DNA of 31,981 bases from a virus, in IMG/VR virus record IMGVR_UViG_3300035188_000536, positions 1 through 31,981 of that record. One strand, 5' to 3'. Below the pieces are notes generated by a model. The model was not told the origin of the DNA, did no database searches, and worked only from the letters and a program-made list of their open reading frames with translations. A program made the translations under genes and the position numbers. This document shows, one piece after another, positions 2 through 30,173 of this stretch. Positions within the stretch are counted from its first letter, which is position 1. Every line of letters starts with the position of its first letter.

Positions 2-1705
2 GTAGATGAAGTTTGTTGTGGTGACTTGATTGGTGCTTGTTGTGAAAAATCAGGACCTGAATATAGTTGCACACAAAAACATCCATCTGAATGTACTGGT
101 ATATTCCATGGTGCTAACACACAATGTACTGAAGTAGAGTGTTGTGGTAAGAATTTTATAGAAACTTATTTTAACTCTTCTACTGATTGTAGATTAACAA
201 GTAATCAGCCATGTCTTCCAATCGGTACGAAAATTGGTGGGGGATATCTAGTTGGTGTCGTTGGTATGCCATCACCTTGTTCATCATATGGAAACCCATT
301 AGTTGCTTATGGCCAACCATTGGCGTGTAGAGTCCACCCAAGAGGTAGTGTAGTTGGTCCAAATTCTTTCTACTGGAATTTCAAAAATTGTGGTGGTGCT
401 AATGGTTCCACATTAGGTGCATTTGGTGCTTACGCAAGCGATGTTAATTTTGAATATTTCTTAAGAACTAAATCCTCAGATACTGTTAATTTGAATTATG
501 CAGATAATGCTTTAAATAAATGTTTATTAAAGTTTGGTACTCCATATATTCAACAAACTTATAAAGATATTACAAGCATTCAAGGTGTTCAGACAACAGT
601 TCAATGGTTAGATAATATTCAATATGTTGGATCAATGGAATATAATTTATCAAATGGATTTTTTGCATATCCTGTCGGTGGTGCTGAAGTTTCCTTGAAT
701 TATATTATCCCAGAAAAACACTCAAACGAATCACCTAATTATAAGTATCTTGCAGAAAAATATTATAGTGCTAATAATATTCACATGTTATGGGCATTGA
801 TCGTAGCCCCAGATGATGCATACTCATCCAGCAATCTAATCTGGGGTATGGAAGAAGGCAGAGCAAGATTAGAAGGTTATAACGAAGAACCAATAACATC
901 TTTTGCTGTAGATGGTTTATTGATGACAAGAATTTTTGACGAATCTTCTAAAGAAAATCCAAATCTATGGTTTAGAGATCCACAAGGTACTGGAAAAGAT
1001 TTAAAGGCTTATGATAGATTTGCTTTCTATAATCCAACAAATATAACAAAAAGAACCAATTGGAATCTTTCTGTTGTTGAAAATACAATCGAAACTAATA
1101 TTAATGTCTTTAAGCAAAATTATTCTGAAATGTGGGATACACACAATCCAGAAAATTCCTGCACAAAACAAATTTCTATATTGAATCAAACCAGTTATGA
1201 AGGATATAACGATTGGTATATACCATCTATAACTGAATTGAATTACATTTATGAGAATGTGGATGCTATTAATGCTAGTATTTTAGTAAATAGCGAACAG
1301 TTAATTGATACAAATAGTGATTACTGGAGTTCAACAACTGTTTCTTACTTGAAGAGTTGGAGCGCATCAAATCATTTAGATTATACATCATATCAAATAG
1401 AAGAAACACCAACCTCACAAAATAAAAATTCTAAGTATAGATTTATTGCTTCTGATTTCTCTGGTTTAAATGATAAGAAAGCCTATGAATTATCACTCAA
1501 TGTTTCTGCTGGTGAAAACATGTTGATCCAATCATTTGTTCAGAATGGTAATAATGCAGGGTTAGTTTCATCTAAGAATAGAAAATTATTTGGAGCGAAA
1601 CTCAGACCAGTAAGAAGAATTCCAATTATTATTGGATCTTCATCAGATAACATTGAAACTATTTTAAATGCTTATGATTTTTCTAATTGTAATTCATGCC
1701 CCTAA
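2..1705 (+). CDS. Cysteine-rich fibre/adhesin-like protein with C-terminal DUF1566 (Lcl-like) domain, 5' partial
   Basis: The frame is open to the left edge (…VDEVCCGDLIGACC…), so the gene begins outside the window and the TTG at 26 is not its start. The visible N-terminus carries a CC-type cysteine repeat like those in the next gene (GACC, then C, C, C and CC over about 45 residues). Near the C-terminus, counting from the TTG, lie the hallmarks of DUF1566/Lcl-C domains: DWYIPSITELNYIYEN at about 394-410, YWSS at about 432, and a terminal LRPVRR at about 526-531. Such domains occur at the ends of phage fibre and bacterial surface proteins and have a lectin-like fold in characterised members. 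The role as a virion adhesin is inferred from this and from the adjacent collagen-like cysteine-rich gene. No signal peptide can be judged because the start is missing. Confidence 0.75.
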   Translation, partial: VDEVCCGDLIGACCEKSGPEYSCTQKHPSECTGIFHGANTQCTEVECCGKNFIETYFNSSTDCRLTSNQPCLPIGTKIGGGYLVGVVGMPSPCSSYGNPLVAYGQPLACRVHPRGSVVGPNSFYWNFKNCGGANGSTLGAFGAYASDVNFEYFLRTKSSDTVNLNYADNALNKCLLKFGTPYIQQTYKDITSIQGVQTTVQWLDNIQYVGSMEYNLSNGFFAYPVGGAEVSLNYIIPEKHSNESPNYKYLAEKYYSANNIHMLWALIVAPDDAYSSSNLIWGMEEGRARLEGYNEEPITSFAVDGLLMTRIFDESSKENPNLWFRDPQGTGKDLKAYDRFAFYNPTNITKRTNWNLSVVENTIETNINVFKQNYSEMWDTHNPENSCTKQISILNQTSYEGYNDWYIPSITELNYIYENVDAINASILVNSEQLIDTNSDYWSSTTVSYLKSWSASNHLDYTSYQIEETPTSQNKNSKYRFIASDFSGLNDKKAYELSLNVSAGENMLIQSFVQNGNNAGLVSSKNRKLFGAKLRPVRRIPIIIGSSSDNIETILNAYDFSNCNSCP

Positions 1706-1711
1706 TTAATG

Positions 1712-1719
1712 GATAAATA
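1712..1719 (+). promoter_or_regulatory. Late promoter box GATAAATA
   Basis: This is a 7/8 match to the T4 late box TATAAATA, recognised by gp55-loaded host RNA polymerase. It ends 5 bases before the ATG at 1725. With T4 spacing (box at -13 to -6) the predicted +1 is the A of the start codon. The 15 bases ATAAATATTATTATG recur identically at 27624-27638. No Shine-Dalgarno is present. Confidence 0.5.
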
Positions 1720-1724
1720 TTATT

Positions 1725-4700
1725 ATGTCAAGTAGCGCAATCGGCTTTCAAAATATAAATAAAGGTCCAACAGGAGCAACAGGAGCACGTGGAGCACAGG
1801 GACCAATAGGCCCAACAGGTGGTCTTGGTGGTCCTACTGGACCAACTGGTAATATTGCTCCATATATTTTAAATGTATCTTTAACTGGTCAAACAGCTAC
1901 TGTACAATTATCAGATGGTGTGCAATATTTAGTTTCTGGTAATTTTTTAGGTGCTACTGGTTCTGATACTACAATTATTAGTATTAAAGATCCTTTAGAT
2001 CCTGGATCAGATGTAATTACATATAGTTTATTGGCTTCTGGTAATAATACCAATTCATTTGTAATGCGTGGTATTTCTGGATTCGGTTCTCTAGTAGTAA
2101 CAGAAAATGCAAGTACTATTTTTATAGATTCAATCTATACACCTAGTAGCGGAAGCCTTGATTCTTTTGGTCTTACAAATAATACTTTAGTCTATCTAAA
2201 ACAACGAGATCAAATCTCCAGCACAACGATTGGTATAACATCTGGTAATTTTTATGATGGTGTATTGAATTTTGAAAAATCTGGTTCTACACCAGCATCT
2301 CCAAGTTTCTCTAAGTTACTACCTAGATCAAAAGTAAAGTACTTAACACCAACTTATAAAACATCAACACCACAACCAATTGTATTAAATATTGATGATG
2401 CTGGTGTATTTTATGTCAGAACACCAAATGGTATTTCAGCATTTAATGGAAATTTCAAATCTAGTGAGGTAGTATCTTTTACTCTCATCACAGAAAGTGA
2501 TGATATCTGGAATTTCCCATCGAATGTTTATTTTGAGAATGGTGAAAATTATCTAACATGTGGTAAATCCATACTTAATTTAACCTCATTTGACCAGGGT
2601 ACATCATGGTACGCGACAGTTGCTGCTAGAGGTATTGATGCTTCTGTTACCAATTGCCAAATTCGAGGTGTACTTGGTTCGTGTTGTTATACTGGTGTTA
2701 CTGGATCTCAATGTGTTGATTATGTTACAAAAAATCAATGTGATATTTTAAGCGGTACATTCAACCCATTACAGCCTTGCGAGACAGCCTGTGGATACAC
2801 TTTTGGTATTTGTTGTTCTAATGGTCAATGTATTGAAGATGCAAATTACGCAGAATGTTTAGCCTTCGGTGGTAGATTCTTATTTGGTGTGACATGTGGC
2901 TCATTTGGTGCTAGTCTAGATCCCGATGCTACAAACGCAACGCGATTATGCTATGATTCTTGCCAAAATCAAAAAGTAGCTTGTTGTAAAGATGGTGTAT
3001 GCTTAGGTGATGAGTTCACAAAAATAGAATGTGAAAATATTCTTGGTGGCGTTGCCTTTGTAGGACAACCATGTTCATCTGTTGATTGTTGCGAGCAAAA
3101 TGTAAAAATTGGTGCTTGTTGTAAAAATCAAGAATGCTCACAAAAAACTTTGAATGAATGCAAAGCCATTGGCGGTGTATTCATGGGTGAAGGTGAATTA
3201 TGTGAAAATGTAAATTGCAAATGTATTGGTGATGCAAGATATGGAAATTGTTGTTATTGTCAAGGCACATCTAAGCTATGTAAAGTAACAGCAGAAGACG
3301 ATTGTGAAACTGGGCTTTGGACTTATAATTCTTCATATACTTCTAACACTCCTAGTTGTAATGCTGATGGTTTCAGTGGTTGTCTGGAAGACCTCACACT
3401 AAATTGTGGAGGTGATTTCTTTAAATGTTGTTATTGCGAAGATGGTGTTACTAACTGTTCAAATTTAACACAAGCACAATGTGCTAGTTTCAATGGTATA
3501 TTCACTCAAGGTATACAATGCACACTTACTAATTGTGATCCATGTGAATCTGATGGAGGTAATCCATGTGCAGATTGTGTAGTAGAAGTTCCTGGTGTAT
3601 GTTGTAAGTGTGATGATCCAAATGTACCATGTCTACAAGTTGCTGATGTAAAAAATTGCCCATCTGAATATACTCAAAATACAAAATCAACCTTTTGTGT
3701 AGATAATCCGTGTCGTTGTAATACATCCAGTTCTGATTGTGATTTAAGAACAGAATCACCACAAATATCTTGTCCCCCATTACCAGCATCATTTGATGTT
3801 TTAGCTGAACATGAAGTTGATACTGCTTCTTCAACTAGAAGAAATATAATAACTAAGAATATAGCAGATAATAATTCTAATACTTTTAAACCTATGGGTG
3901 GAGTATTAGTAAAAGATTTTTATATTGATATTAATGGTAGTGGATTTCAAAAAATAAATAATGGTAAAGATTTAAAATTCTGTTTAACATTAGACTTAGA
4001 TACATTCAGAAATCCATCAGATACAAGCGGTCTAGGTGATGATTCTGTTAGAGTTTATATTTTAAGATCTTGGTATCCGAAATTCTTTGCACAAAATTAT
4101 GCAAATTATAAAAATTTTCATTACAGTGGTGTTGATGATAATTTTGATCAATTTTCATCTGTAATTACTCAAGTTCCAGCAAAAACAGATTTTCAAGAAT
4201 CTAGTGCAACTGAAAATGGTTCTTATTGGGGATATTTAGCAGAACTTGATCCTGAAAAAACAGGAGTATCTGAGTTTACAGAGGCTGATGTTTTATCTGG
4301 TTATATTAATAAAAATGAACAATATTCAATAAAACATTATACGGATCCTTATTCTGCTCCTGCATCATATAATACTGATGATTTAAGAATGGAATTAAAT
4401 TGCCCTTTATTTGGATTAAATACTAGAGGCAAGGCTGTTAATGAATCAGATTTAATTCCAAGTGGATTTAATTCTTTTTCTCCAATAAAAAATATTTTAA
4501 ATAATAACGCAAATTCACAAAATATTTATCCAAATCCAGAAGAAGTTGATTCCACTGGCTATTATGACTCTGTTGATATAGGAATTAAATATACTTTAGG
4601 GCAGTTAAGCCTTCCAGAGAGCATGTTATATCCTATAAATTACCCAAGAATAGTTGGGACGATTGGAAATGATAATCTAGGATTAACTTATAATTCAACT

Positions 4701-6755
4701 TCTGGTATAGCAAGATCAAATTATCTTTTATTTAATAAATCAGCAATAAATTTATATAATTTTTCAACTTCCAACGGTAATAATTATTCAATTTATAGAT
4801 TTGCTGGCTACAATGATATTGGTATAGCACAACAAATTTCAACAACTGAGAATAAATTCAATAATATTACTGATATAGGGTATTATACAAATCAAGCAAT
4901 TTTAACAAATTTTGCTAATTTAGGCGGAAAATTTGATATTGCCTCTAATATAAAAACAAAAAATGTTGGTCATCCAATAACAATGGATTATGACGGTGAT
5001 TTTTATCTACAAGGATTCCCTGCACAATCAAGAACAATTAGATATCAAGATGTTAATAAAATAGAATCACCTATTAAATATACAAAAAATTCTGCTATAA
5101 TATTTGATTCTGGAGTTATTACAAGACGTGGAAATACATTAAAAACATTATTCCTTGGTACAGGAGAAAATACAAATTTTATACAAACATTTACCACTGA
5201 TATTTTAGAACCACATGGTACTAGAATTTACACTGGAGCAATTAATAATCCAGCAGATGTAGATAATGGTAGAAAAAATGCAAAAACTATATCAAAATTT
5301 TTAATTGAAGATTCTGGAATCCCTGGAGAACCGAATCCAAACAATGCATATAATTTTTGTATAACATTACCAAACTATAAAGATTATGTTTTTGATTCTA
5401 CAAATATTCAAAATGAAGCTCTTATAGAGAACTCACTAACTGCTGGTAGATTTACAAATTTTGAGAACAAAATAAGAGTTGTTGTTTTCAGTTATGCACA
5501 TGAACCAAGCACTATTAATAAACCTATTGATAATGTTAAATTAATGGTTGAAAATGATGATCCAGATACTCTAACATCTTATGCAGAAAATTATATTGAT
5601 AATATTCAATCACAACAAGTACCAAATTCAGTAGCAAATTATACTATAAGTTTTAATGATCCAAATTTATGCGTTGATCAAGATGATCCATGTGAATTAT
5701 GCTCAGATCATATAAATAATGAATATGAATCGAATTGTTATTCGATTTTTAGCGCACGATATAATTGGAATCCAACAACATCTGGTTGTTATGGTATATG
5801 TAATAATACCACATTTGATCCTAGTAGTGGTTTAGGTACTAGTGAAGGTAGATGTTTTTTTGCTGATATTTGTGATCATCATATAGCCTTAGCTTGTTCT
5901 TGTGGAGATAAAGATTCATGTTCATGTAAAGGTGAATCTATAATGTTTCCATCTATTAGACGTAACTGTAATGCTTTTGGCAATATTCCAGAATGTACTG
6001 GCGAACAATTAAATTCTTGTAGCCTATACAGAAACTCTGTAGGATATAATGGAATTGCATATCCATCATGGCCAGGAGAAGTAAGAGAATTTCTTACAAA
6101 TAGTGGATTTGTTTATCATAATTTTCCAGTGGATCAATTTGAAGAAGCTTTTGATGAATATACCAGTGGATTTGTTGTAAAGGTAAAACCAATCACTCTT
6201 GATGGTAAACAATTTTATACAGATGGTTTTAATGTATTTAATAAAAATACACTATGCGATGGGCCAGATACACTTGGTGAAGATTGTTCTTCACCTTTAA
6301 CAAATAAAAGAACATCAACAATTTATCATCGTCAAGGCTGTATACCTGGTACTGTAAATGCTGGTATAACTTTAGAACAAGGTCTAGATACAACAAATGG
6401 TACTGTTTGGTTTGGTCGATCATCCAATAAATGCATATTTTCAAATACATCATGTAATTTTGGCTCTGATGATCAACAAACAGACTTAGAAATTGTCAAA
6501 GAAAATATAATTCCTGCTATGAGTGTTTTTACAGGACCATTTTCATATCAACATGCAAATGCTCCATGTAGTATTACAACAGCAGATTATTTAAATAATT
6601 ATCAAGAAGTTTTACAGGGAACATGCCCATCATCATCATTTACAGATACATTTATAAATAAATTGATTCCAATCGAAGGATCAGAGCCACTTTGTATTCC
6701 TTTAGAGTGTTCTGTTATTGATTGCTCTCAATATGAGGATTGTAGCCCAACATGA
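1725..6755 (+). CDS. Giant cysteine-rich virion protein with collagen-like N-terminus
   Basis: At 1676 residues this is the largest gene in the window. Residues 14-42 are Gly-X-Y triplets (GPTGATGARGAQGPIGPTG…), as in trimeric collagen-like phage fibres. Residues about 318-675 hold a series of cysteine repeats with the pattern G-x-C-C-x(n)-C-x(7-9)-C-x(5)-GG-x(5-8)-C-x(3-4)-C. Residues about 690-1300 are Asn/Ser-rich, beta-type and nearly Cys-free. A second Cys cluster lies near 1320-1420 (CELC, CSCGDKDSCSCKG) and the protein ends CSVIDCSQYEDCSPT. I recognise the modules but not the whole protein. A long tail fibre, whisker or capsid decoration is likely. The start has no Shine-Dalgarno and lies directly behind a late box. 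The stop overlaps the next ATG (ATGA), so the two are probably co-translated. Confidence 0.7.
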   Translation: MSSSAIGFQNINKGPTGATGARGAQGPIGPTGGLGGPTGPTGNIAPYILNVSLTGQTATVQLSDGVQYLVSGNFLGATGSDTTIISIKDPLDPGSDVITYSLLASGNNTNSFVMRGISGFGSLVVTENASTIFIDSIYTPSSGSLDSFGLTNNTLVYLKQRDQISSTTIGITSGNFYDGVLNFEKSGSTPASPSFSKLLPRSKVKYLTPTYKTSTPQPIVLNIDDAGVFYVRTPNGISAFNGNFKSSEVVSFTLITESDDIWNFPSNVYFENGENYLTCGKSILNLTSFDQGTSWYATVAARGIDASVTNCQIRGVLGSCCYTGVTGSQCVDYVTKNQCDILSGTFNPLQPCETACGYTFGICCSNGQCIEDANYAECLAFGGRFLFGVTCGSFGASLDPDATNATRLCYDSCQNQKVACCKDGVCLGDEFTKIECENILGGVAFVGQPCSSVDCCEQNVKIGACCKNQECSQKTLNECKAIGGVFMGEGELCENVNCKCIGDARYGNCCYCQGTSKLCKVTAEDDCETGLWTYNSSYTSNTPSCNADGFSGCLEDLTLNCGGDFFKCCYCEDGVTNCSNLTQAQCASFNGIFTQGIQCTLTNCDPCESDGGNPCADCVVEVPGVCCKCDDPNVPCLQVADVKNCPSEYTQNTKSTFCVDNPCRCNTSSSDCDLRTESPQISCPPLPASFDVLAEHEVDTASSTRRNIITKNIADNNSNTFKPMGGVLVKDFYIDINGSGFQKINNGKDLKFCLTLDLDTFRNPSDTSGLGDDSVRVYILRSWYPKFFAQNYANYKNFHYSGVDDNFDQFSSVITQVPAKTDFQESSATENGSYWGYLAELDPEKTGVSEFTEADVLSGYINKNEQYSIKHYTDPYSAPASYNTDDLRMELNCPLFGLNTRGKAVNESDLIPSGFNSFSPIKNILNNNANSQNIYPNPEEVDSTGYYDSVDIGIKYTLGQLSLPESMLYPINYPRIVGTIGNDNLGLTYNSTSGIARSNYLLFNKSAINLYNFSTSNGNNYSIYRFAGYNDIGIAQQISTTENKFNNITDIGYYTNQAILTNFANLGGKFDIASNIKTKNVGHPITMDYDGDFYLQGFPAQSRTIRYQDVNKIESPIKYTKNSAIIFDSGVITRRGNTLKTLFLGTGENTNFIQTFTTDILEPHGTRIYTGAINNPADVDNGRKNAKTISKFLIEDSGIPGEPNPNNAYNFCITLPNYKDYVFDSTNIQNEALIENSLTAGRFTNFENKIRVVVFSYAHEPSTINKPIDNVKLMVENDDPDTLTSYAENYIDNIQSQQVPNSVANYTISFNDPNLCVDQDDPCELCSDHINNEYESNCYSIFSARYNWNPTTSGCYGICNNTTFDPSSGLGTSEGRCFFADICDHHIALACSCGDKDSCSCKGESIMFPSIRRNCNAFGNIPECTGEQLNSCSLYRNSVGYNGIAYPSWPGEVREFLTNSGFVYHNFPVDQFEEAFDEYTSGFVVKVKPITLDGKQFYTDGFNVFNKNTLCDGPDTLGEDCSSPLTNKRTSTIYHRQGCIPGTVNAGITLEQGLDTTNGTVWFGRSSNKCIFSNTSCNFGSDDQQTDLEIVKENIIPAMSVFTGPFSYQHANAPCSITTADYLNNYQEVLQGTCPSSSFTDTFINKLIPIEGSEPLCIPLECSVIDCSQYEDCSPT
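1764..1850 (+). repeat. Collagen-like Gly-X-Y coding repeat
   Basis: About seven consecutive Gly-X-Y triplets are followed by an imperfect continuation (GGP-TGP-TG), in residues 14-42 of the giant fibre-like protein. In phages such stretches form short collagen-like triple helices and suggest a homotrimer. Confidence 0.75.
2676..3749 (+). repeat. Array of CC-type cysteine repeats within the CDS
   Basis: Diverged repeats of about 40-60 residues cover residues about 318-675. Anchor motifs are GSCC, GICC, VACC, GACC, GNCC, KCCYC and GVCC, each followed by single cysteines and often a Gly-Gly before the next cysteine. The spacing is regular at first and becomes irregular towards the end. The repeats are diverged at DNA level, so this is an old protein repeat and not a recent tandem duplication. 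Confidence 0.7.
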
Positions 6756-8272
6756 GTATTCAATTTAGATCCAGAATCCGAAGTACTTTTGATTACGGCA
6801 AGCAATTGAAGCAATCAGGTAAATGTTGCTTTGCTGATGGTTCATCAGAACTCATTACATTTTATGAATGTTTTTCTAGATCTGGTACTTTTATTACAGA
6901 TGTGGATGCTCCATGTCCAACATCAGCAAAAAAAGGATATTGCTGTGCTTGTGCATATTTAAGTGATTCTCAAAGACAAGAAGTTGTAAATAATCTACCA
7001 TATAACACATCAAATTCTTTCTGGGATGGTACGTTTGGAATACAATCGAATATTACAGAATGTGAATGTAATAGAATAGGTGGATTGTGGAGTGAGACTA
7101 ATTCTACATCATCTTTATGTGATAAGAGTGTTCAGATAGATGGATCAAACTATGATATTGATGCAAGAATACCAAATGCTTGTTGTTCATTTATTATACA
7201 GAACGGTGCTCCAAATGGTGTTACTTGTCAGAATGTTTGTTCGGAACGAGCCTGTGCAAATTTAGCAATAGTTGAATCTGGTCCTAATGATCCATTTGCA
7301 GATACTGTGTTTATACCAAATAAAGTCTGTGGTAAATCAATAGTTTCTGGTGTTGCTGCTGCTTCTTGTGGAACAACAATAATTACTTCAAGATTGATAT
7401 CCACCACAGATGCTTTTGCTGAAGATCTTCTTGGTCCTTGTTATCAATTAAATGAAGAAACATTAGAATATACTTGTTCTGTTCAGCCAGAATATAGATG
7501 TTCTGGGTACTGGGTAAACCCAGAAACTATTGATTCCAATGTTGCTTATTGTGATCACGCATATACACCAAAAAGTTTTACAAAAACATCCAGTTATATA
7601 AATCCTATTCAATATACAGAGTCGGAATTTGATTCGCTTGGTCTTTCAATAGGTGATGAGTTTCAAGGCGGAATTTATATTGGAAAATTTGCCCCAAAGA
7701 AACCAAATGCTACCACAATATCCAGAGTATATGGAGCATTGAATTTTTCAACACCATCGTCAACTTATGTTGATGTCTCTGGTGAATCCGAATATTCTAA
7801 ATGGGGAATCATTGTAAATAAAAATTTCTTAAAATCACCATTAATTTATTCTACAGATCCGATCAATAATTTCACAAATTCTTATTATGATGGCTATATG
7901 AACTGTTATGGTGATCGTTATCAAAATAATAGAATAGAATCATCTACCATCAATACAATCCGTGGAAAATTAAGAAATGGATTTATAGATTATTATGTAC
8001 CATCTATAGTGGAAATGATGTTCTTATCAGAACAATATAGAAATAATACAACACTACAAGATATTTTGACGATTGATGGCACATTTGCATCATCTACATT
8101 TGTAACCGATAAATATCTAAAAGCATTTCCTACTGGTGTGAATATATTTAATAATATGAATTTATTATATGGTCAAATAATAGGAACTGGTGAAAATCTA
8201 GGAAAGAATATAACATTCAATATAAATAGAACTGTGAACTTCTTCTTGTTTAGAAGAATAATATTAACATGA
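6752..8272 (+). CDS. Cysteine-rich fibre-like protein with degenerate DUF1566-like C-terminus
   Basis: This 506-residue protein overlaps the preceding stop by four bases (ATGA), which suggests translational coupling. Cysteines cluster in the first 265 residues (GKCCFADG, GYCCACAY, ECECN, ACCSF). The C-terminal half has IGDEFQGGIYIGKF at about 301, a segment YYVPSIVEMMFLSEQYRN at about 414-431 resembling the WxxPSxxEL segment of DUF1566, and a terminal FFLFRRI replacing the usual RPVR. The first gene of the window has the same architecture with better-preserved motifs. The three genes probably form one fibre or adhesin operon. Receptor binding is inferred from the domain type, not shown. Confidence 0.6.
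   Translation: MSIQFRSRIRSTFDYGKQLKQSGKCCFADGSSELITFYECFSRSGTFITDVDAPCPTSAKKGYCCACAYLSDSQRQEVVNNLPYNTSNSFWDGTFGIQSNITECECNRIGGLWSETNSTSSLCDKSVQIDGSNYDIDARIPNACCSFIIQNGAPNGVTCQNVCSERACANLAIVESGPNDPFADTVFIPNKVCGKSIVSGVAAASCGTTIITSRLISTTDAFAEDLLGPCYQLNEETLEYTCSVQPEYRCSGYWVNPETIDSNVAYCDHAYTPKSFTKTSSYINPIQYTESEFDSLGLSIGDEFQGGIYIGKFAPKKPNATTISRVYGALNFSTPSSTYVDVSGESEYSKWGIIVNKNFLKSPLIYSTDPINNFTNSYYDGYMNCYGDRYQNNRIESSTINTIRGKLRNGFIDYYVPSIVEMMFLSEQYRNNTTLQDILTIDGTFASSTFVTDKYLKAFPTGVNIFNNMNLLYGQIIGTGENLGKNITFNINRTVNFFLFRRIILT
8221..8228 (+). promoter_or_regulatory. Possible late promoter box TATAAATA inside upstream gene
   Basis: A perfect TATAAATA lies in the 3' end of the preceding gene, about 53 bases before the ATG at 8281. 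It could give late transcripts of the small Cys/Gly-rich gene. Several perfect boxes occur inside genes by chance in DNA this AT-rich, so the support is weak. Confidence 0.3.
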
Positions 8273-8821: not shown

Positions 8822-8854
8822 AAAAACTCCTTATAAATAAATAAGGAGTTTTTT
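8822..8854 (+). promoter_or_regulatory. Hairpin masking the gene 13 ribosome binding site, late box in its loop
   Basis: AAAAACTCC (8822-8830) pairs with GGAGTTTTT (8845-8853). The 3' arm contains the gene 13 Shine-Dalgarno GGAG (8845-8848), 7 bases before the ATG at 8856. The loop contains TATAAATA (8832-8839). The T-run also makes it look like a weak intrinsic terminator for the upstream operon. Confidence 0.6.
8832..8839 (+). promoter_or_regulatory. Late promoter box TATAAATA before gene 13
   Basis: This is a perfect T4 late box. With T4 spacing the +1 falls at G8845, the first base of the GGAG ribosome binding site, so the late transcript would lack the 5' arm of the hairpin. Confidence 0.7.
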
Positions 8855-16865: not shown

Positions 16866-17086
16866 AAGTTTATTTTTATGATAAAGAAACCTTGAAAAAA
16901 GAGCTTAGAAATAAATCAAATAAAGCTCTTATGGTTAGATTTAAAGGTCATACACAGGTTTCTATACCAAAAAATATATTAGAAATTATTCAAAATTTGT
17001 CAAAAAAAGATAGAACTTTTATGAAAAAACTACTTTCTAGTGAAAATAATTTCATTTTCTTTTTGACAAATTTCATAAAAAAATAA
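16862..17086 (+). CDS. Small basic protein at the gene 67 position, function unknown
   Basis: This is a 74-residue, Lys-rich protein whose ATG overlaps the portal stop (ATGA). It has no recognisable motif; the end SSENNFIFFLTNFIKK is hydrophobic and may be a helix. In T4 the gene after 20 encodes the acidic core protein gp67, but this product is basic, so homology is not supported. The coupling to gene 20 suggests expression with the portal and perhaps a role in prohead initiation or core formation. That is inference from position. Confidence 0.6.
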   Translation: MKVYFYDKETLKKELRNKSNKALMVRFKGHTQVSIPKNILEIIQNLSKKDRTFMKKLLSSENNFIFFLTNFIKK

Positions 17087-17089
17087 ATA
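17082..17089 (+). promoter_or_regulatory. Late promoter box AATAAATA before the prohead core gene
   Basis: This is a 7/8 match to TATAAATA overlapping the end of the 74-residue gene. The predicted +1 is near 17095, just before CGGAG, giving a short leader to the ATG at 17110. It fits the relaxed NATAAATA form described for cyanophages. Confidence 0.45.
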
Positions 17090-17109: not shown

Positions 17110-17616
17110 ATGAAACCATTAAACGAAGCAGTGATACATTTAATTAATGAAGATGTTGTAAATGCCAAGAAACTTATCGAAAACGAACTTTACATTCGTC
17201 TAGGGACTATTCTTGAAGAAAAATTAAAGAATTATGCACCAACAATCTTTACTGAAAAAATGGCAGCTAAAGATTACGATGGTGATAAGAAGATTGAAAC
17301 ATCAGAACAAGAATTTCTAGGTTCTAGAGATAAGGCAATCAAAAAATCAATGCAATCTAAATCAATGAAAGCTAAATCGATGAAAGAATCAATTGAAGAA
17401 TCTGAGGATGATCTCCTTGAAGAAGATGCTTTTATCGAAGAATTGCAAGCACTTGTCGAATCAATAGAAAATGATATTGGTGAAGAACTCACCGAATCTG
17501 AAATCGAAGAACTTGCAAATATTTTATTAGAAGAGAGTGATCCAGATGAAGACGAGGAAGAAGATTTCGAAGAAGATTTTGAAGAAGAAGACTACGAAGA
17601 AGAAGAAACCAAATAA
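17110..17616 (+). CDS. Prohead core protein (gp67/gp68-like), acidic, with EF-hand-like loop
   Basis: The 168-residue product lies between portal and protease, the slot of the T4 core genes 67 and 68. Residues 55-66 read DYDGDKKIETSE, a good EF-hand/dockerin calcium-loop pattern (acidic at 1, 3, 5, 9 and 12, Ile at 8). Residues 79-93 contain three KSMxx units. The C-terminal third is highly acidic and ends in a run of Glu/Asp, as expected of a scaffold core protein removed by proteolysis. I/LxE tripeptides that gp21 could cleave are present, for example LIE near residue 22. Core function is inferred from position and composition. Confidence 0.7.
   Translation: MKPLNEAVIHLINEDVVNAKKLIENELYIRLGTILEEKLKNYAPTIFTEKMAAKDYDGDKKIETSEQEFLGSRDKAIKKSMQSKSMKAKSMKESIEESEDDLLEEDAFIEELQALVESIENDIGEELTESEIEELANILLEESDPDEDEEEDFEEDFEEEDYEEEETK
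17344..17388 (+). repeat. Three 15-base tandem repeats (KSMxx)
   Basis: Three adjacent 15-base units start AAATCAATG, AAATCAATG and AAATCGATG. They encode KSMQS, KSMKA and KSMKE in the prohead core protein. The unit is short and in frame, suggesting slippage-type expansion of a basic helix between the EF-hand-like loop and the acidic tail. Confidence 0.65.
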
Positions 17617-19338: not shown

Positions 19339-19346
19339 TATAAATA
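19339..19346 (+). promoter_or_regulatory. Late promoter box TATAAATA before gene 23
   Basis: This perfect box lies in the 41-base gap between genes 22 and 23. Predicted +1 is near 19352, and the Shine-Dalgarno AGGAG (19356-19360) lies in the short leader before the ATG at 19368. T4 gene 23 is also driven by a strong late promoter. Confidence 0.75.
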
Positions 19347-20792: not shown

Positions 20793-20820
20793 TAATCAGG
20801 ACTGATTGAAAAAATAAAAG

Positions 20821-20853
20821 CAAAGGGTTGGGTAAAACCAACCCTTTGTTATT
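20821..20853 (+). terminator. Strong intrinsic terminator after gene 23
   Basis: CAAAGGGTTGG (20821-20831) and CCAACCCTTTG (20838-20848) form a perfect 11-bp stem with a 6-base loop GTAAAA, followed by TTATTTTT. It is the strongest terminator in the window and separates the structural block from the next transcription unit. The next late box begins within a few bases of its T-tract. Confidence 0.9.
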
Positions 20854-20855
20854 TT

Positions 20856-20863
20856 TATAAATA
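20856..20863 (+). promoter_or_regulatory. Late promoter box TATAAATA abutting a start codon
   Basis: This perfect box directly follows the gene 23 terminator and ends 5 bases before the ATG at 20869. With T4 spacing the +1 is the A of that ATG. No Shine-Dalgarno is present in the intervening TTGGT. Confidence 0.65.
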
Positions 20864-20868
20864 TTGGT

Positions 20869-21423
20869 ATGGGATTTAATAATATACCAGATTCTGTTAA
20901 ACAATATTTACCTGGAGATTTTTTAACATCAAATCCATCTATTCCAGTAAATACTAATTTTTTAACCAATAATAAATTTATTTTTATTCTTGATCGATGT
21001 CCTACATTAGTATATTTTTGCCAAAGAGCCAACGTACCATCCGTATCTTTGGGTATTTCTATACAGAATACTCCAACAGCAATTCAAATACAAAGACCTG
21101 GTACAAATGTTACTTTAGAAGAATTTCAAGTTGGATTTGCTATCGATGAGGATTTATTAAATTGGCGAGAGATTCATGATTGGATAAAAGCAATAACATA
21201 TTATGGAAATAATTGTTCAATTCTTAAAGAAGAACAACAAACTTCAAATGCTTCGCTATTGATCCTAAATAGTTCATATAGACCATTTTTAAAAGTCAGA
21301 TTCTATGATATTTTCCCAACTTTCTTAAGTGGTATTGATTTTGATACAACATTACCAGATACAGATAATATTATTGCTTCTGTAAATTTTGCGTATTCTT
21401 ATTTTGACTTAGAAACTCTTTAA
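20869..21423 (+). CDS. Second tail-tube-fold protein (gp19/gp54-like)
   Basis: The pattern of this 184-residue product is that of tube-like proteins: NNKFIFILDRCPTLVYFCQR, VPSVSLGISIQ, FQVGFAIDEDLLNWREIHDW, VRFYDIFPTFLSGIDFD, then ASVNFAYSYFDLE at the end. T4-like phages have several proteins with this fold, including gp19 (tube) and gp54 (tube initiator on the baseplate). In cyanophages a tail-completion gene (gp3) can follow gene 23, so gp3 is an alternative. I cannot decide between these. It is isolated by a terminator upstream and begins exactly at the predicted +1 of a late box. Confidence 0.7.
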   Translation: MGFNNIPDSVKQYLPGDFLTSNPSIPVNTNFLTNNKFIFILDRCPTLVYFCQRANVPSVSLGISIQNTPTAIQIQRPGTNVTLEEFQVGFAIDEDLLNWREIHDWIKAITYYGNNCSILKEEQQTSNASLLILNSSYRPFLKVRFYDIFPTFLSGIDFDTTLPDTDNIIASVNFAYSYFDLETL

Positions 21424-24120: not shown

Positions 24121-24156
24121 ATTATAATAGACTTTTAAAAACTGTCAAGTAAAAAC

Positions 24157-24184
24157 TTGAAATTTTACAGGAATCTGTTATAAT
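24157..24184 (+). promoter_or_regulatory. Sigma70-type promoter with extended -10 before gene 55
   Basis: TTGAAA (24157-24162) is followed after 16 bases by TATAAT (24179-24184), with TG one base upstream (TGTTATAAT, an extended -10). It is the best host-type promoter in the window. Predicted +1 is near 24191, directly at the GGAG of the gene 55 ribosome binding site. It would drive early or middle transcription of gene 55 and the following recombination and replication genes. Confidence 0.7.
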
Positions 24185-24200
24185 GAAAGAGGAGTACAAA

Positions 24201-24764
24201 ATGGCAGAAGATATAGTAGAAAAAGAATTAAAATCATTAAGACATTACGTTGATAACCAAAAATTCCTTAAATCCATGAATGAATGGAAAAAGGAAGTCA
24301 AAAAGGCCGAAAAGAAAGGTCAGAAGCGACCCCCGGTAACGGATTATATAGCAGAATGCTTTATAATGATCGCTGAACATCTTTCTCAACGGCCTAATTT
24401 TATTAATTATCCTTTTAGAGAAGATATGGTTGGTGATGGTATAGAAAATTGTATAGCATACGCTCACAATTTTGATTCAGAGAAATCATCAAATCCATTC
24501 TCATATTTTACACAAATAATTTATTACGCTTTTTTGCGTCGAATAGAAAGAGAAAAGAAACAATCTTTCATAAAATATAAATGCTTACAGATGAATGATG
24601 TTGATGGAAAATTTGTAGATTGGCTACAAAATAATCAAGGATCATCTACTTTTGGTGAATTTCTTCAACACACATTTTTCTTATCTGAAAACGATATAGA
24701 AAAAATGGAAGCCAAAGAAAAAGTAAAGAAAAAACGTGGTAAAAAATCAAAAAAGAAATCATGA
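24201..24764 (+). CDS. 55: Late-transcription sigma factor gp55
   Basis: gp55 is the phage sigma that directs host RNA polymerase to TATAAATA late boxes, together with gp33 and the gp45 clamp. I chose the ATG at 24201 because AGAGGAG (24188-24194) precedes it at good spacing and an upstream in-frame ATG at 24183 lies inside the -10 box of the promoter. The 187-residue product (T4: 185) has PPVTDYIAECFIMIAEHLSQ, then NYPFREDMVGDGIENCI and NPFSYFTQIIYYAFLRRIER, the sigma region 2-like core of the family. The C-terminus is Lys-rich. It overlaps gene 47 by four bases. Confidence 0.93.
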   Translation: MAEDIVEKELKSLRHYVDNQKFLKSMNEWKKEVKKAEKKGQKRPPVTDYIAECFIMIAEHLSQRPNFINYPFREDMVGDGIENCIAYAHNFDSEKSSNPFSYFTQIIYYAFLRRIEREKKQSFIKYKCLQMNDVDGKFVDWLQNNQGSSTFGEFLQHTFFLSENDIEKMEAKEKVKKKRGKKSKKKS

Positions 24765-25937: not shown

Positions 25938-27627
25938 GAATTTTGGTTCTTTTGGTAATAATTGGACTGAAATCGATTTAAATAAAAATTCCACAACATT
26001 AGTCTGTGGTACAAATGGTAGTGGTAAATCATTCGCTTTGCTTGATACTATTACATTTGCATTATTCGGTAAACCATTTAGAAAAATTAATTTAGCACAA
26101 TTGAATAATTCGATCAACAAGAAAAATTGCACTGTCGAATTAGAATTTTCTATTGATAAGGATGACTATAAAATTATTCGTGGTTTATCTCCAAAAATCT
26201 TTGAGATACACAGAAACAATAAATTGATCAATCAAGATTCTAAAAATATTGATTATCAAGATGTTCTCGAAGAACAAATCCTGAAAATGAATTACAAAAC
26301 ATTCACACAGGTAGTAATTTTAGGAAGTTCTGCTTTTATACCGTTCATGCAACTCACGGCTTCAGACAGAAGAGCCGTAATAGAAAATATTCTTGATATT
26401 AATATTTTCACAACAATGAATGTTATTCTTAAGACAAAGGTTACTATTGCAAAAGAAAATATTACAGATATTGTAAATAAAATAGAACTACAGAAACAGA
26501 AAGTTGAATATCAGCAAAAAATTGTAGATAATCTAACATTACGTCTTAACAATGATGTTAAGAAGATTCAGGAAGAAATAGATCACCACACAATAGAAGA
26601 AAATAATTATTTACAAGAAATTGAAAAATTACAACAAGAAAAAAATTCTATAGAATTAAATAGTAAGATACAAGATATTTTGAATCTTTTTAAACAGAAT
26701 GAAACTACAATATCGCAATTTACATTTAAGATATCTGATCTAGAAAAAGAAATTAAGTTTTATGAAAAAACAGAGAATTGTCCTAAGTGCAAAACACATT
26801 TATCAGAGAGTCTAAAGAAAGAAAATATTGATTCGTTAACAGATAATATTACTTCGTTAGAAACTAAAATAAATTCTTTGGCAGAATTAAATACAGATAA
26901 TCAAAAAATTATCTCAACAGAACAAAAAAATAAAACAAGAATAGCCAATATTGAAGGTAATATTAAAGATATAAATTCTTCCATAAGAGAAGTAAAATCT
27001 TTGATTGCATATAAAAATAAACAACTTCAAGAATCAACAAAAATAGAAATAGATTTATCTAGAGAAAAAGCAGTTCTCAAAATGGAAAAATCTGAATTAC
27101 TTAAATTAAGTAAAGAATCTGAAGTATTAAAAGAAGATTTATCTTATCTTAAGTTGGCTGGTGATATTCTAAAAGACAATGGTGTTAAGATTAAAATAAT
27201 TAAACACTATTTGCCTTCTATGAATAAGTTCATCAATAAGTATCTAAGATCTATGGATTTCTTCATTCAGTTCAATATAGATGAAGAATTTAATGAGGTT
27301 ATAAAAAGTAGACACAGAGATGAATTCAGTTATATGAATTTTAGCGAAGGTGAAAAGATGCGTATTGATTTAGCACTTCTATTAGCATGGAGAGAAATCG
27401 CTAAAATGAAAAATAGTGTAAACTGCAATTTGCTTATTTTAGATGAAATTTTTGATTCTTCTCTTGATTCTGTAGGAACAGACGAAGTTTTAAGATTGTT
27501 GAATGCTCTTGGGGTAAAAACAAATGTATTTGTAATAAGCCATAAGGCAGATCAAATAGTCGATAAGTTTACGAATACAATAACTTTTGAGAAGAAGAAT
27601 AATTTTAGTAAAATGACCATTTCATAA
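25909..27627 (+). CDS. 46: Recombination ATPase subunit gp46 (Rad50-like SMC)
   Basis: This is the ATPase partner of gp47, 572 residues (T4: 560). Walker A GTNGSGKS lies at 34-41, followed by FALFGKPFRKINLAQLNNS and VVILGSSAFIPFMQLTASDR. A long coiled coil spans about 170-440 and is interrupted by the zinc hook CPKC at 291-294. The C-terminal lobe has the ABC signature NFSEGEKMRIDLALLLAW at about 476-493 and Walker B LLILDEIFD near 508-516, ending with the VISHK switch. All functional elements are present. The start overlaps the small ORF, and the ATG has no strong Shine-Dalgarno. Confidence 0.95.
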   Translation: MILFKKIKFKNFGSFGNNWTEIDLNKNSTTLVCGTNGSGKSFALLDTITFALFGKPFRKINLAQLNNSINKKNCTVELEFSIDKDDYKIIRGLSPKIFEIHRNNKLINQDSKNIDYQDVLEEQILKMNYKTFTQVVILGSSAFIPFMQLTASDRRAVIENILDINIFTTMNVILKTKVTIAKENITDIVNKIELQKQKVEYQQKIVDNLTLRLNNDVKKIQEEIDHHTIEENNYLQEIEKLQQEKNSIELNSKIQDILNLFKQNETTISQFTFKISDLEKEIKFYEKTENCPKCKTHLSESLKKENIDSLTDNITSLETKINSLAELNTDNQKIISTEQKNKTRIANIEGNIKDINSSIREVKSLIAYKNKQLQESTKIEIDLSREKAVLKMEKSELLKLSKESEVLKEDLSYLKLAGDILKDNGVKIKIIKHYLPSMNKFINKYLRSMDFFIQFNIDEEFNEVIKSRHRDEFSYMNFSEGEKMRIDLALLLAWREIAKMKNSVNCNLLILDEIFDSSLDSVGTDEVLRLLNALGVKTNVFVISHKADQIVDKFTNTITFEKKNNFSKMTIS

Positions 27628-27630
27628 ATA
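27623..27630 (+). promoter_or_regulatory. Late promoter box CATAAATA abutting a start codon
   Basis: This 7/8 match to the T4 late box overlaps the end of gene 46 and ends 5 bases before the ATG at 27636, placing the predicted +1 on the start codon. ATAAATATTATTATG (27624-27638) is identical to the sequence at 1713-1727. Confidence 0.5.
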
Positions 27631-27635
27631 TTATT

Positions 27636-27953
27636 ATGAGTAATCCTGATAAACTTAATTATAGAGGAAATTTTAAAGAATATGATTCCCGTGGGTATGA
27701 AATAACATATAATGTGGGGGATGTCGTTCTTTATGATGGTAAAGAATATATTGCCATAGAGAGAAACAAAAGATCTCTTCCAATAAAGAAAAATTCTGGA
27801 TGGAAAGAACTCTCTGGTGATATAGAAGATTATCATTATTCTGACAGTATTCCCCTAAATGCTAATGTCGGGGATAGATGGGTTGACAGATTAACTGGTG
27901 TGATGTATACTTACATTGAAGATAAAAATGGATTTCATTGGGTAGAATTTTAA
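27636..27953 (+). CDS. Small carbohydrate-binding-like protein, probable virion accessory
   Basis: The 105-residue product has two modules. Residues about 24-58 (YNVGDVVLYDGKEYIAI, then SGWKEL) resemble the short aromatic CBM5/12 (chitin-binding type) pattern. Residues about 74-105 (NANVGDRWVDRLTGVMYTYI, then GFHWVEF) match the GDRWxDxxTGxxYxYxxD…WVE motif seen in phage fibre and tail proteins. I infer a virion accessory or adhesin part, although the gene sits inside the replication block. A late box lies directly before it. Its stop overlaps the next ATG (TAATG). Confidence 0.55.
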   Translation: MSNPDKLNYRGNFKEYDSRGYEITYNVGDVVLYDGKEYIAIERNKRSLPIKKNSGWKELSGDIEDYHYSDSIPLNANVGDRWVDRLTGVMYTYIEDKNGFHWVEF

Positions 27954-28141: not shown

Positions 28142-28828
28142 ATGAATACAGCGACACAAATTACGTTGAGCAAGACAACACTTGCTATCCTGAAGAATTT
28201 TGCATCACTCAATTCGAATATCCTGGTAAACCCAGGAAATACAATCAAGACAATCACACCTTCGATGAATGGTATGGCTGAAGCGATTGTAGAAGAAACA
28301 TTCGATACTCAATTTGGTATTTGGGATCTGAATAAGTTTCTTGGAGTGATTAGTCTTTTTACAAATCCAACTTTTGAGTTTGGTGAGAAGTCTGTTACAA
28401 TTTCAGGTAGCAATAATTCTGTTGTTAATTTTGGTTACTCTGAACCACGACTTTTGACTACACCTACGAAGAATGTTAATATGCCAGAGATTGCAGTAGA
28501 AGTGAACATTACACAGGAAATGTTCTCTGAACTTAGTCGAGCAAGTTCTATCATGCAATTACCTGATATTTCATTCGCTGGTAATGAAGATGGTATCTTC
28601 GTTGAAGTATCAGATAGGGCTGATCCATCAAGTAATAGTTGTAAGATTCGTCTTGATGACAACTTAGATGATAAGGACTTTGCATTCCATTTCAAGATGG
28701 AAAATATCAAACTCCTTCCAGGAAACTATAAGATTTCTTTCGCCAAGCAACTTGCTGGGCGATTTGAGAATGAGAATATTCAGTTGACCTACTGGTTTGC
28801 GATGCAACCAGATTCTTACTGTAAGTGA
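28142..28828 (+). CDS. 45: Sliding clamp gp45
   Basis: gp45 is the trimeric DNA polymerase clamp and also the mobile enhancer of late transcription with gp55 and gp33. The 228-residue length equals that of T4 gp45. The N-terminus LSKTTLAILKNFASLNSNIL matches the T4 LSKDTTALLKNFATINSGI, and later segments FGIWDLNKFLGVISLF and KMENIKLLPGNYKISF correspond to T4. It is followed within seven bases by gene 44, as in T4. The start context is ATTACTATG with only a weak GAAAG upstream. Confidence 0.93.
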   Translation: MNTATQITLSKTTLAILKNFASLNSNILVNPGNTIKTITPSMNGMAEAIVEETFDTQFGIWDLNKFLGVISLFTNPTFEFGEKSVTISGSNNSVVNFGYSEPRLLTTPTKNVNMPEIAVEVNITQEMFSELSRASSIMQLPDISFAGNEDGIFVEVSDRADPSSNSCKIRLDDNLDDKDFAFHFKMENIKLLPGNYKISFAKQLAGRFENENIQLTYWFAMQPDSYCK

Positions 28829-30165: not shown

Positions 30166-30173
30166 TATAAATA
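30166..30173 (+). promoter_or_regulatory. Late promoter box TATAAATA before regA
   Basis: A perfect late box lies in the 33-base gap between genes 62 and regA. Predicted +1 is near 30179, and GGAG (30187-30190) precedes the ATG at 30196. Confidence 0.6.

Follow-up and report, generated by a model that had tools for sequence, protein, structure and literature searches.

What does a late gene gain when a T4-type late promoter box stands only five bases in front of its start codon, and where would its mRNA begin? The question is raised by a 31,981-base virus record (the whole stretch of DNA that was analyzed, hereafter the window), in which the gene order is typical of a T4-superfamily phage: gp13, 14, 15, 16, 17, 18, 19, 20, 21, 22, 23, gene 3, uvsY, uvsW, gp55, 47, 46, a small gene, 45 and 44. 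A clamp-loader small subunit and then regA follow 3' of gene 44, as judged from synteny and an initial annotation of the sequence. Compared with cultured phages, the gp23 of the window is nearest to those of the Melnitz methylophages and cyanophage S-SSM7 (57%).

Three NATAAATA boxes in the window are each located exactly 5 bases 5' of an ATG. The initial annotation had placed these arrangements at 1712–1727, 20856–20871 and 27623–27638, and all three coordinates proved exact; its count of one box sequence twice and another once was likewise recovered (ATAAATATTATTATG twice, ATAAATATTGGTATG once), as were the lack of a Shine-Dalgarno (SD) motif at the three candidates and the GGAG of the other boxed genes. 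The latter (gene 13, the gene at 17110, gene 23 and regA) have leaders of 12–22 nt. The boxes and the genes that they head are as follows.

1712–1719, plus strand: predicted late promoter box GATAAATA; same arrangement in L061 and L062
1725–6755, plus strand: open reading frame for a 1676-aa collagen-repeat, fibre-like protein, predicted leaderless, +1 = A1725; weak PHROG tail-fibre/collagen matches (E 0.005–0.008)
8833–8843, plus strand: leadered late box(es) of gene 13, contrast class; AAGGAG in the leader
17083–17089, plus strand: leadered late box of the gene at 17110, contrast class; CGGAG
19340–19346, plus strand: leadered late box of gene 23, contrast class; AGGAG
20856–20863, plus strand: predicted late promoter box TATAAATA for gene 3, which would occupy -13 to -6; relatives keep spacing 5 with varied spacer bases
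20869–21423, plus strand: gene 3 homologue (tail completion/terminator, tube fold), predicted leaderless, +1 = A20869; phrog_45, E 1.4e-27
27623–27630, plus strand: predicted late promoter box CATAAATA, containing the gp46 TAA stop; of 12 homologous loci with a readable start, 11 keep spacing 5
27636–27953, plus strand: small gene between 46 and 45, CBM_5_12-like (Pfam), predicted leaderless, +1 = A27636; conserved N-terminus
30167–30173, plus strand: leadered late box of regA, contrast class; TGGAG; regA identity from the initial annotation and HTVC008M synteny

Among the 30 gene starts of the window seven are boxed, at spacings of 5, 5, 5, 12/16, 20, 21 and 22. For one fixed spacing, the upstream composition predicts 0.038 boxes in 30 starts, and three were seen (P ~9e-6). 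The 7-mer as such shows no excess in the window (17 occurrences versus 24 expected from shuffles), and a loose box pattern allowing 2 mismatches is no commoner there than in shuffles and is uninformative alone; the non-random feature is the position of the box, not the frequency of the 7-mer.

In T4 the late box occupies -13 to -6 (PMC1524935), and its first T is numbered -13 in PMC2988020. A box at -13 to -6, with five bases between, would place +1 on the A of the ATG, and the earlier proposal to that effect follows from this published T4 placement. On the sequence evidence set out below, we consider it probable (roughly 0.87) that the boxes are gp55-type late promoters located at the start codon, from which leaderless late mRNAs are predicted to arise.

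Spacing in uncultured and cultured relatives

Comparison of the five-base spacing with other spacings in related genomes, and with shuffled boxes, had been suggested as a check, and it was strongly positive in two sets of loci. In the first set, comprising 146 related IMG/VR loci, ATAAATA was scored upstream of ATG-opened ORFs of at least 80 aa at non-redundant starts, and the counts at spacings 0 to 10 were 1, 1, 1, 1, 1, 43, 8, 1, 1, 1 and 2, with the peak at exactly 5 nt. A second, broad spacing class was observed at ~15–30 nt, together with SD motifs. Following stricter removal of redundancy, 36 starts remained at spacing 5, versus a mean of 0.7 and a maximum of 3 for permuted boxes. The second set, composed of loci fetched later with gene 48 and gene 46 and from which the earlier starts were excluded, gave counts of 1, 1, 0, 0, 1, 60, 17, 2, 4, 0 and 0. 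One permuted box scored 13 at spacing 5 in this set, probably as a one-base shift of the spacing-6 sites. Spacing 6 is itself somewhat in excess (8 and 17 in the two sets) and a few cases occur at 4 or 7, so that +1 may shift by one base.

The view that AT-rich upstream regions create a box at spacing 5 by accident could draw on the window alone, where neither the 7-mer nor the loose pattern is commoner than in shuffles. It is refuted by the spacing histograms, and the position-specific counts in relatives, the permuted boxes and the annotated starts described below leave it next to no likelihood.

Of 57 gene 48 loci examined, 56 have the box at spacing 5, as do 21 of the 22 upstream sequences that are distinct; homologues whose match misses the N-terminus (most of L251–L274) are excluded from this count. 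The spacing is still kept in the box variants TATACATA and CTAAATA. At exactly 5 nt, ATACATA and CTAAATA were observed 6 and 7 times, respectively (permuted mean 0.25, maximum 2), and 4 and 13 times in the second set. The letters of the box drift between phages and between genes, and its distance to the ATG is fixed.

Several other observations were made on these loci. A ~163-aa gene near gene 48, possibly the head completion gp4, carries CTAAATA at spacing 5 (L195:5476, L205:797, L207:194, L208:4235 and L220:1127), and the genomes with this CTAAATA-headed gene use NATAAATA for their own gene 48. The uvsW-like starts in L011:4492, L012:3365 and L109:5969 have the box at spacing 6, not 5. A single origin of the spacing-5 state on the gp23 tree was unsupported: 13 changes were needed, at least 10 of them forced by starred branches, a number that is overstated in that variant boxes were scored as "no box".

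Among the cultured phages, whole-genome counts at spacing 5 were 9 in HTVC008M (permuted mean 0.0), 7 in Mosig (0.3) and 0 in T4. A CDS start is annotated at all nine pattern sites in HTVC008M and at 7 of 8 in Mosig; leaderless starts are modelled by a gene finder that is cited in the Mosig announcement (PMC7892664), which makes the Mosig start annotations less independent. Three of the four pattern sites in Melnitz are real starts. Matches in Syn9, S-SSM7 and RB43 fall in short random frames, as do those in P-SSM2 except for one 76-codon and one 43-codon frame, while ACG-2014f and S-SRM01 have one real spacing-5 start each. The spacing-5 class is a property of pelagiphage-like, methylophage and freshwater or marine uncultured T4 relatives; it is absent from T4 and rare in cyanophages.

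The spacing-5 genes of HTVC008M encode the tube cap, gp25, the baseplate wedge initiator, the tape measure, gp2, a 2OG oxygenase, a CsgF-like protein and a regulator, and include the gene after 23. Those of Mosig are gene 3, gp2, a nitroreductase, a desaturase, a hydrolase, a gene with an Asp/Arg-hydroxylase domain and a small gene. A virion-only class is rejected by the 2OG oxygenase, CsgF-like, nitroreductase and desaturase genes, which are also at spacing 5. The predicted leaderless genes had been proposed as a distinct class of late genes, with all three candidates virion-like; they do form a distinct and conserved class, which is mostly but not strictly one of virion proteins.

Start codons and translation signals

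The start codons at spacing 5 were ATG in 43 cases and GTG or TTG in none, versus 107, 7 and 6 at leadered starts. SD motifs were present in 3% of 109 spacing-5 genes, 80% of 203 leadered genes and 37% of 1,377 box-less genes. A T occupies position -1 in 85% of the spacing-5 genes versus 36% of the box-less genes, and position -4 in 90% versus 40%; this is an initiator-like promoter signature rather than a translational one. At leadered boxes the predicted +1 base is A in 60% (T4) and 67% (pelagiphages), in keeping with an RNA 5' end five bases past the box, and an ATG is found at +1 in only 6 of 142, near the expectation from composition, by which a mere initiation-sequence preference as the source of the ATG at +1 is rejected.

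These data bear on whether the AT-rich octamer could instead be a translation element, either a substitute for the SD or an AU-rich S1-binding site, that acts on read-through mRNAs with the 5 nt as a ribosome-binding spacing. The octamer does occupy the usual place of the SD (-13 to -6), and the genes at 1725 and 27636 are close behind their upstream genes. However, the same octamer also heads leadered genes at 12–33 nt, with a separate SD in 80%, and SD-less, box-less genes are common without it. Moreover, an AU-rich enhancer would need no exact spacing, a strong terminator is located directly 5' of gene 3, and the octamer matches both the known gp55 box and the known variant CTAAATA, the published late box of Aeh1 (PMC1524935). 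A translation element is accordingly improbable, and late promoters placed at the start codon are preferred.

Gene 3 and the genes at 27636 and 1725

The gene 3 site combines the box with one further feature.

20819–20850, plus strand: intrinsic terminator of gene 23; 13-bp stem, loop of 6, -21.5 kcal/mol

In a tblastn search, the product of 20869–21423 matched the cyanophage gp3 "tail completion protein", and the 23-3-uvsY-uvsW synteny with cyanophages supports the identity of gene 3. The T-run of the gene 23 terminator runs straight into the gene 3 box. In L009, L053 and L056 the stem is altered on both sides and the pairing is kept. Relatives of gene 3 down to 65% identity have the hairpin and T-run, then TATAAATA, five variable bases and the ATG; the length of the T-run and the five bases vary, and the distance from box to ATG is constant. 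Loci fetched with gp23 again presented the gp23 stop, a hairpin, the box, 5 nt and gene 3, with hairpins that are unrelated. Since the hairpin should end the gene 23 transcripts, the main late mRNA of gene 3 would have to start at the box.

Expression could alternatively proceed mainly by translational coupling or read-through from the upstream genes, the late promoter adding little. At 27636 the stop codon of gp46 is part of the box, 8 nt 5' of the ATG, and the 1725 gene begins 19 nt past the previous stop; no terminator was found between either gene and its upstream gene, and both may have a leader-bearing read-through mRNA as well. For gene 3, however, this route is impossible unless the terminator is read through, and it leaves unexplained the fixed spacing of 5 across box variants and genes. 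As the main route it is slightly less probable than the translation element considered above, and initiation at the box remains the favored reading for all three genes.

The remaining alternative, that the starts are misassigned and the true start codons lie downstream, behind leaders, finds a parallel in Melnitz, L022, L031 and L035, which have an ATG at +1 and yet a later gene 3 start. Differences by codon position from codon 2 on were 0.15/0.11/0.43 in gene 3 and 0.24/0.23/0.44 in the 27636 gene, while the five-base spacers showed 0.47 and 0.49 differences per site, respectively, with their length unchanged. Codon-type conservation that begins at codon 2 argues against misassigned starts, as do the lack, in the close relatives, of an in-frame ATG in the first 60–90 nt of gene 3 and the 27636 gene, and the agreement of the independent HTVC008M and Mosig annotations (the latter with the reservation given above). 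Misassignment is thus very improbable, and the ATGs that follow the boxes are retained as the predicted leaderless starts.

Two variations on the gene 3 arrangement were observed. In Melnitz and related loci (L161:3838–3870, L022, L031, L035 and L038), the gene 3 box also has an ATG at +1, which opens a frame of 8–14 codons that overlaps the true start of gene 3, and an AAGG-like motif stands between the two; this frame is possibly a leaderless upstream ORF. In one T4-like contig lineage (L073, L075, L076, L079, L089, L284, L304, L309 and L323), TATACATA replaces TATAAATA before gene 3.

The loci homologous to the 27636 gene have seven different five-base sequences at spacing 5. The CBM_5_12 match of its product (E 3.7e-4, 20.9 bits) is under the curated cut-off; the gene has no relative in the phage collection, and close relatives are present in IMG/VR. 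A start related to that of the 1725 gene occurs in L064–L067 at spacing 6. All three candidates had been described as resembling virion proteins; for gene 3 this identity is firm, and the 1725 and 27636 genes are plausible virion genes. Positions 2–8272 of the window are occupied by three adjacent, very long reading frames with cysteine-rich products, which belong to no clear family and have only weak fibre, Lcl_C and phrog_4245 matches.

Predicted leaderless late mRNAs and known systems

The late promoters of T4 are dependent on gp55, gp33 and gp45, of which gp45 is the late transcription activator, and T4 late mRNAs carry leaders. Both the gp55 late sigma factor and the gp45 clamp are encoded in the window.

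24183–24764, plus strand: gp55 late sigma factor, expected reader of the boxes; phrog_234, E 7e-59
28142–28828, plus strand: gp45 sliding clamp; phrog_223, E 3e-65

No family found in the 32-kb window corresponds to the gp33 co-activator. A late promoter factor is annotated in both Mosig and HTVC008M.

We infer that gp55-RNAP uses the boxes in the phage of the window. The placement of these gp55-type promoters would make the A of the start codon the first transcribed base, an exact position that is carried over by analogy from T4. Spacing-5 genes would thereby give late mRNAs that open with AUG at the 5' end and lack both leader and SD, and that would presumably be read by the leaderless (70S) initiation route. 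Such genes would constitute a distinct, conserved late class beside the leadered, SD-carrying class of the same genomes.

The resemblance to T4 late promoters extends to the box TATAAATA, the gp55 and gp45 genes carried by the window and the late structural genes downstream. In contrast, the T4 box is located ~12–35 nt before the start codon, mostly with an SD, and none is found at 5 nt. Leaderless mRNAs of bacteria and phages, e.g., that of lambda cI, have the AUG at the 5' end, lack an SD and strongly prefer AUG over GUG and UUG, and the spacing-5 genes are alike in their AUG at the predicted 5' end, absence of an SD and AUG preference. Unlike lambda cI, a single repressor gene, they would represent a whole lytic late structural class, with promoters for a phage sigma factor at constant spacing. 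Cyanophage late promoters share the NATAAATA box (S-PM2 and Syn9; PMC2984593) and the 23-3-uvsY-uvsW order, but the box with five bases and an ATG is rare at real starts in the cyanophages tested. The CTAAATA box of Aeh1 is also used here, particularly before the ~163-aa gene by gene 48 in pelagiphage-like loci, whereas the available text on Aeh1 (PMC1524935) makes no mention of leaderless placement.

Phage-encoded ribosomal protein bS21 was detected, among 24 records tested (a small and related sample), in Melnitz, Mosig, HTVC008M and a further leaderless-rich genome (W12, W13, W19 and G012) and in no others; T4 and the cyanophages within these records lacked it. A dedicated late translation mode, in which the late, mostly virion mRNAs would be leaderless and the others leadered, perhaps with the aid of bS21, is a tentative and rather doubtful extension.

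The open-access literature searched contained no account of late mRNAs without leaders in T4-like phages, and an earlier study had no success in predicting late promoters in pelagimyophages (PMC7029224). The late box followed by 5 nt provides a search rule for such promoters and pins start codons precisely. It describes a putative promoter fused to the start codon and conserved gene by gene in SAR11 phages and their uncultured freshwater and marine relatives, and the lytic-phage mRNAs that it predicts to be leaderless form a defined group that is testable in cultured pelagiphages.

Upstream of gp55 in the window (24121–24184), two divergent sigma-70-like sites were observed back to back; the minus-strand site is a perfect TTGACA-16-TATAAT and the plus-strand site matches at 11 of 12 positions.
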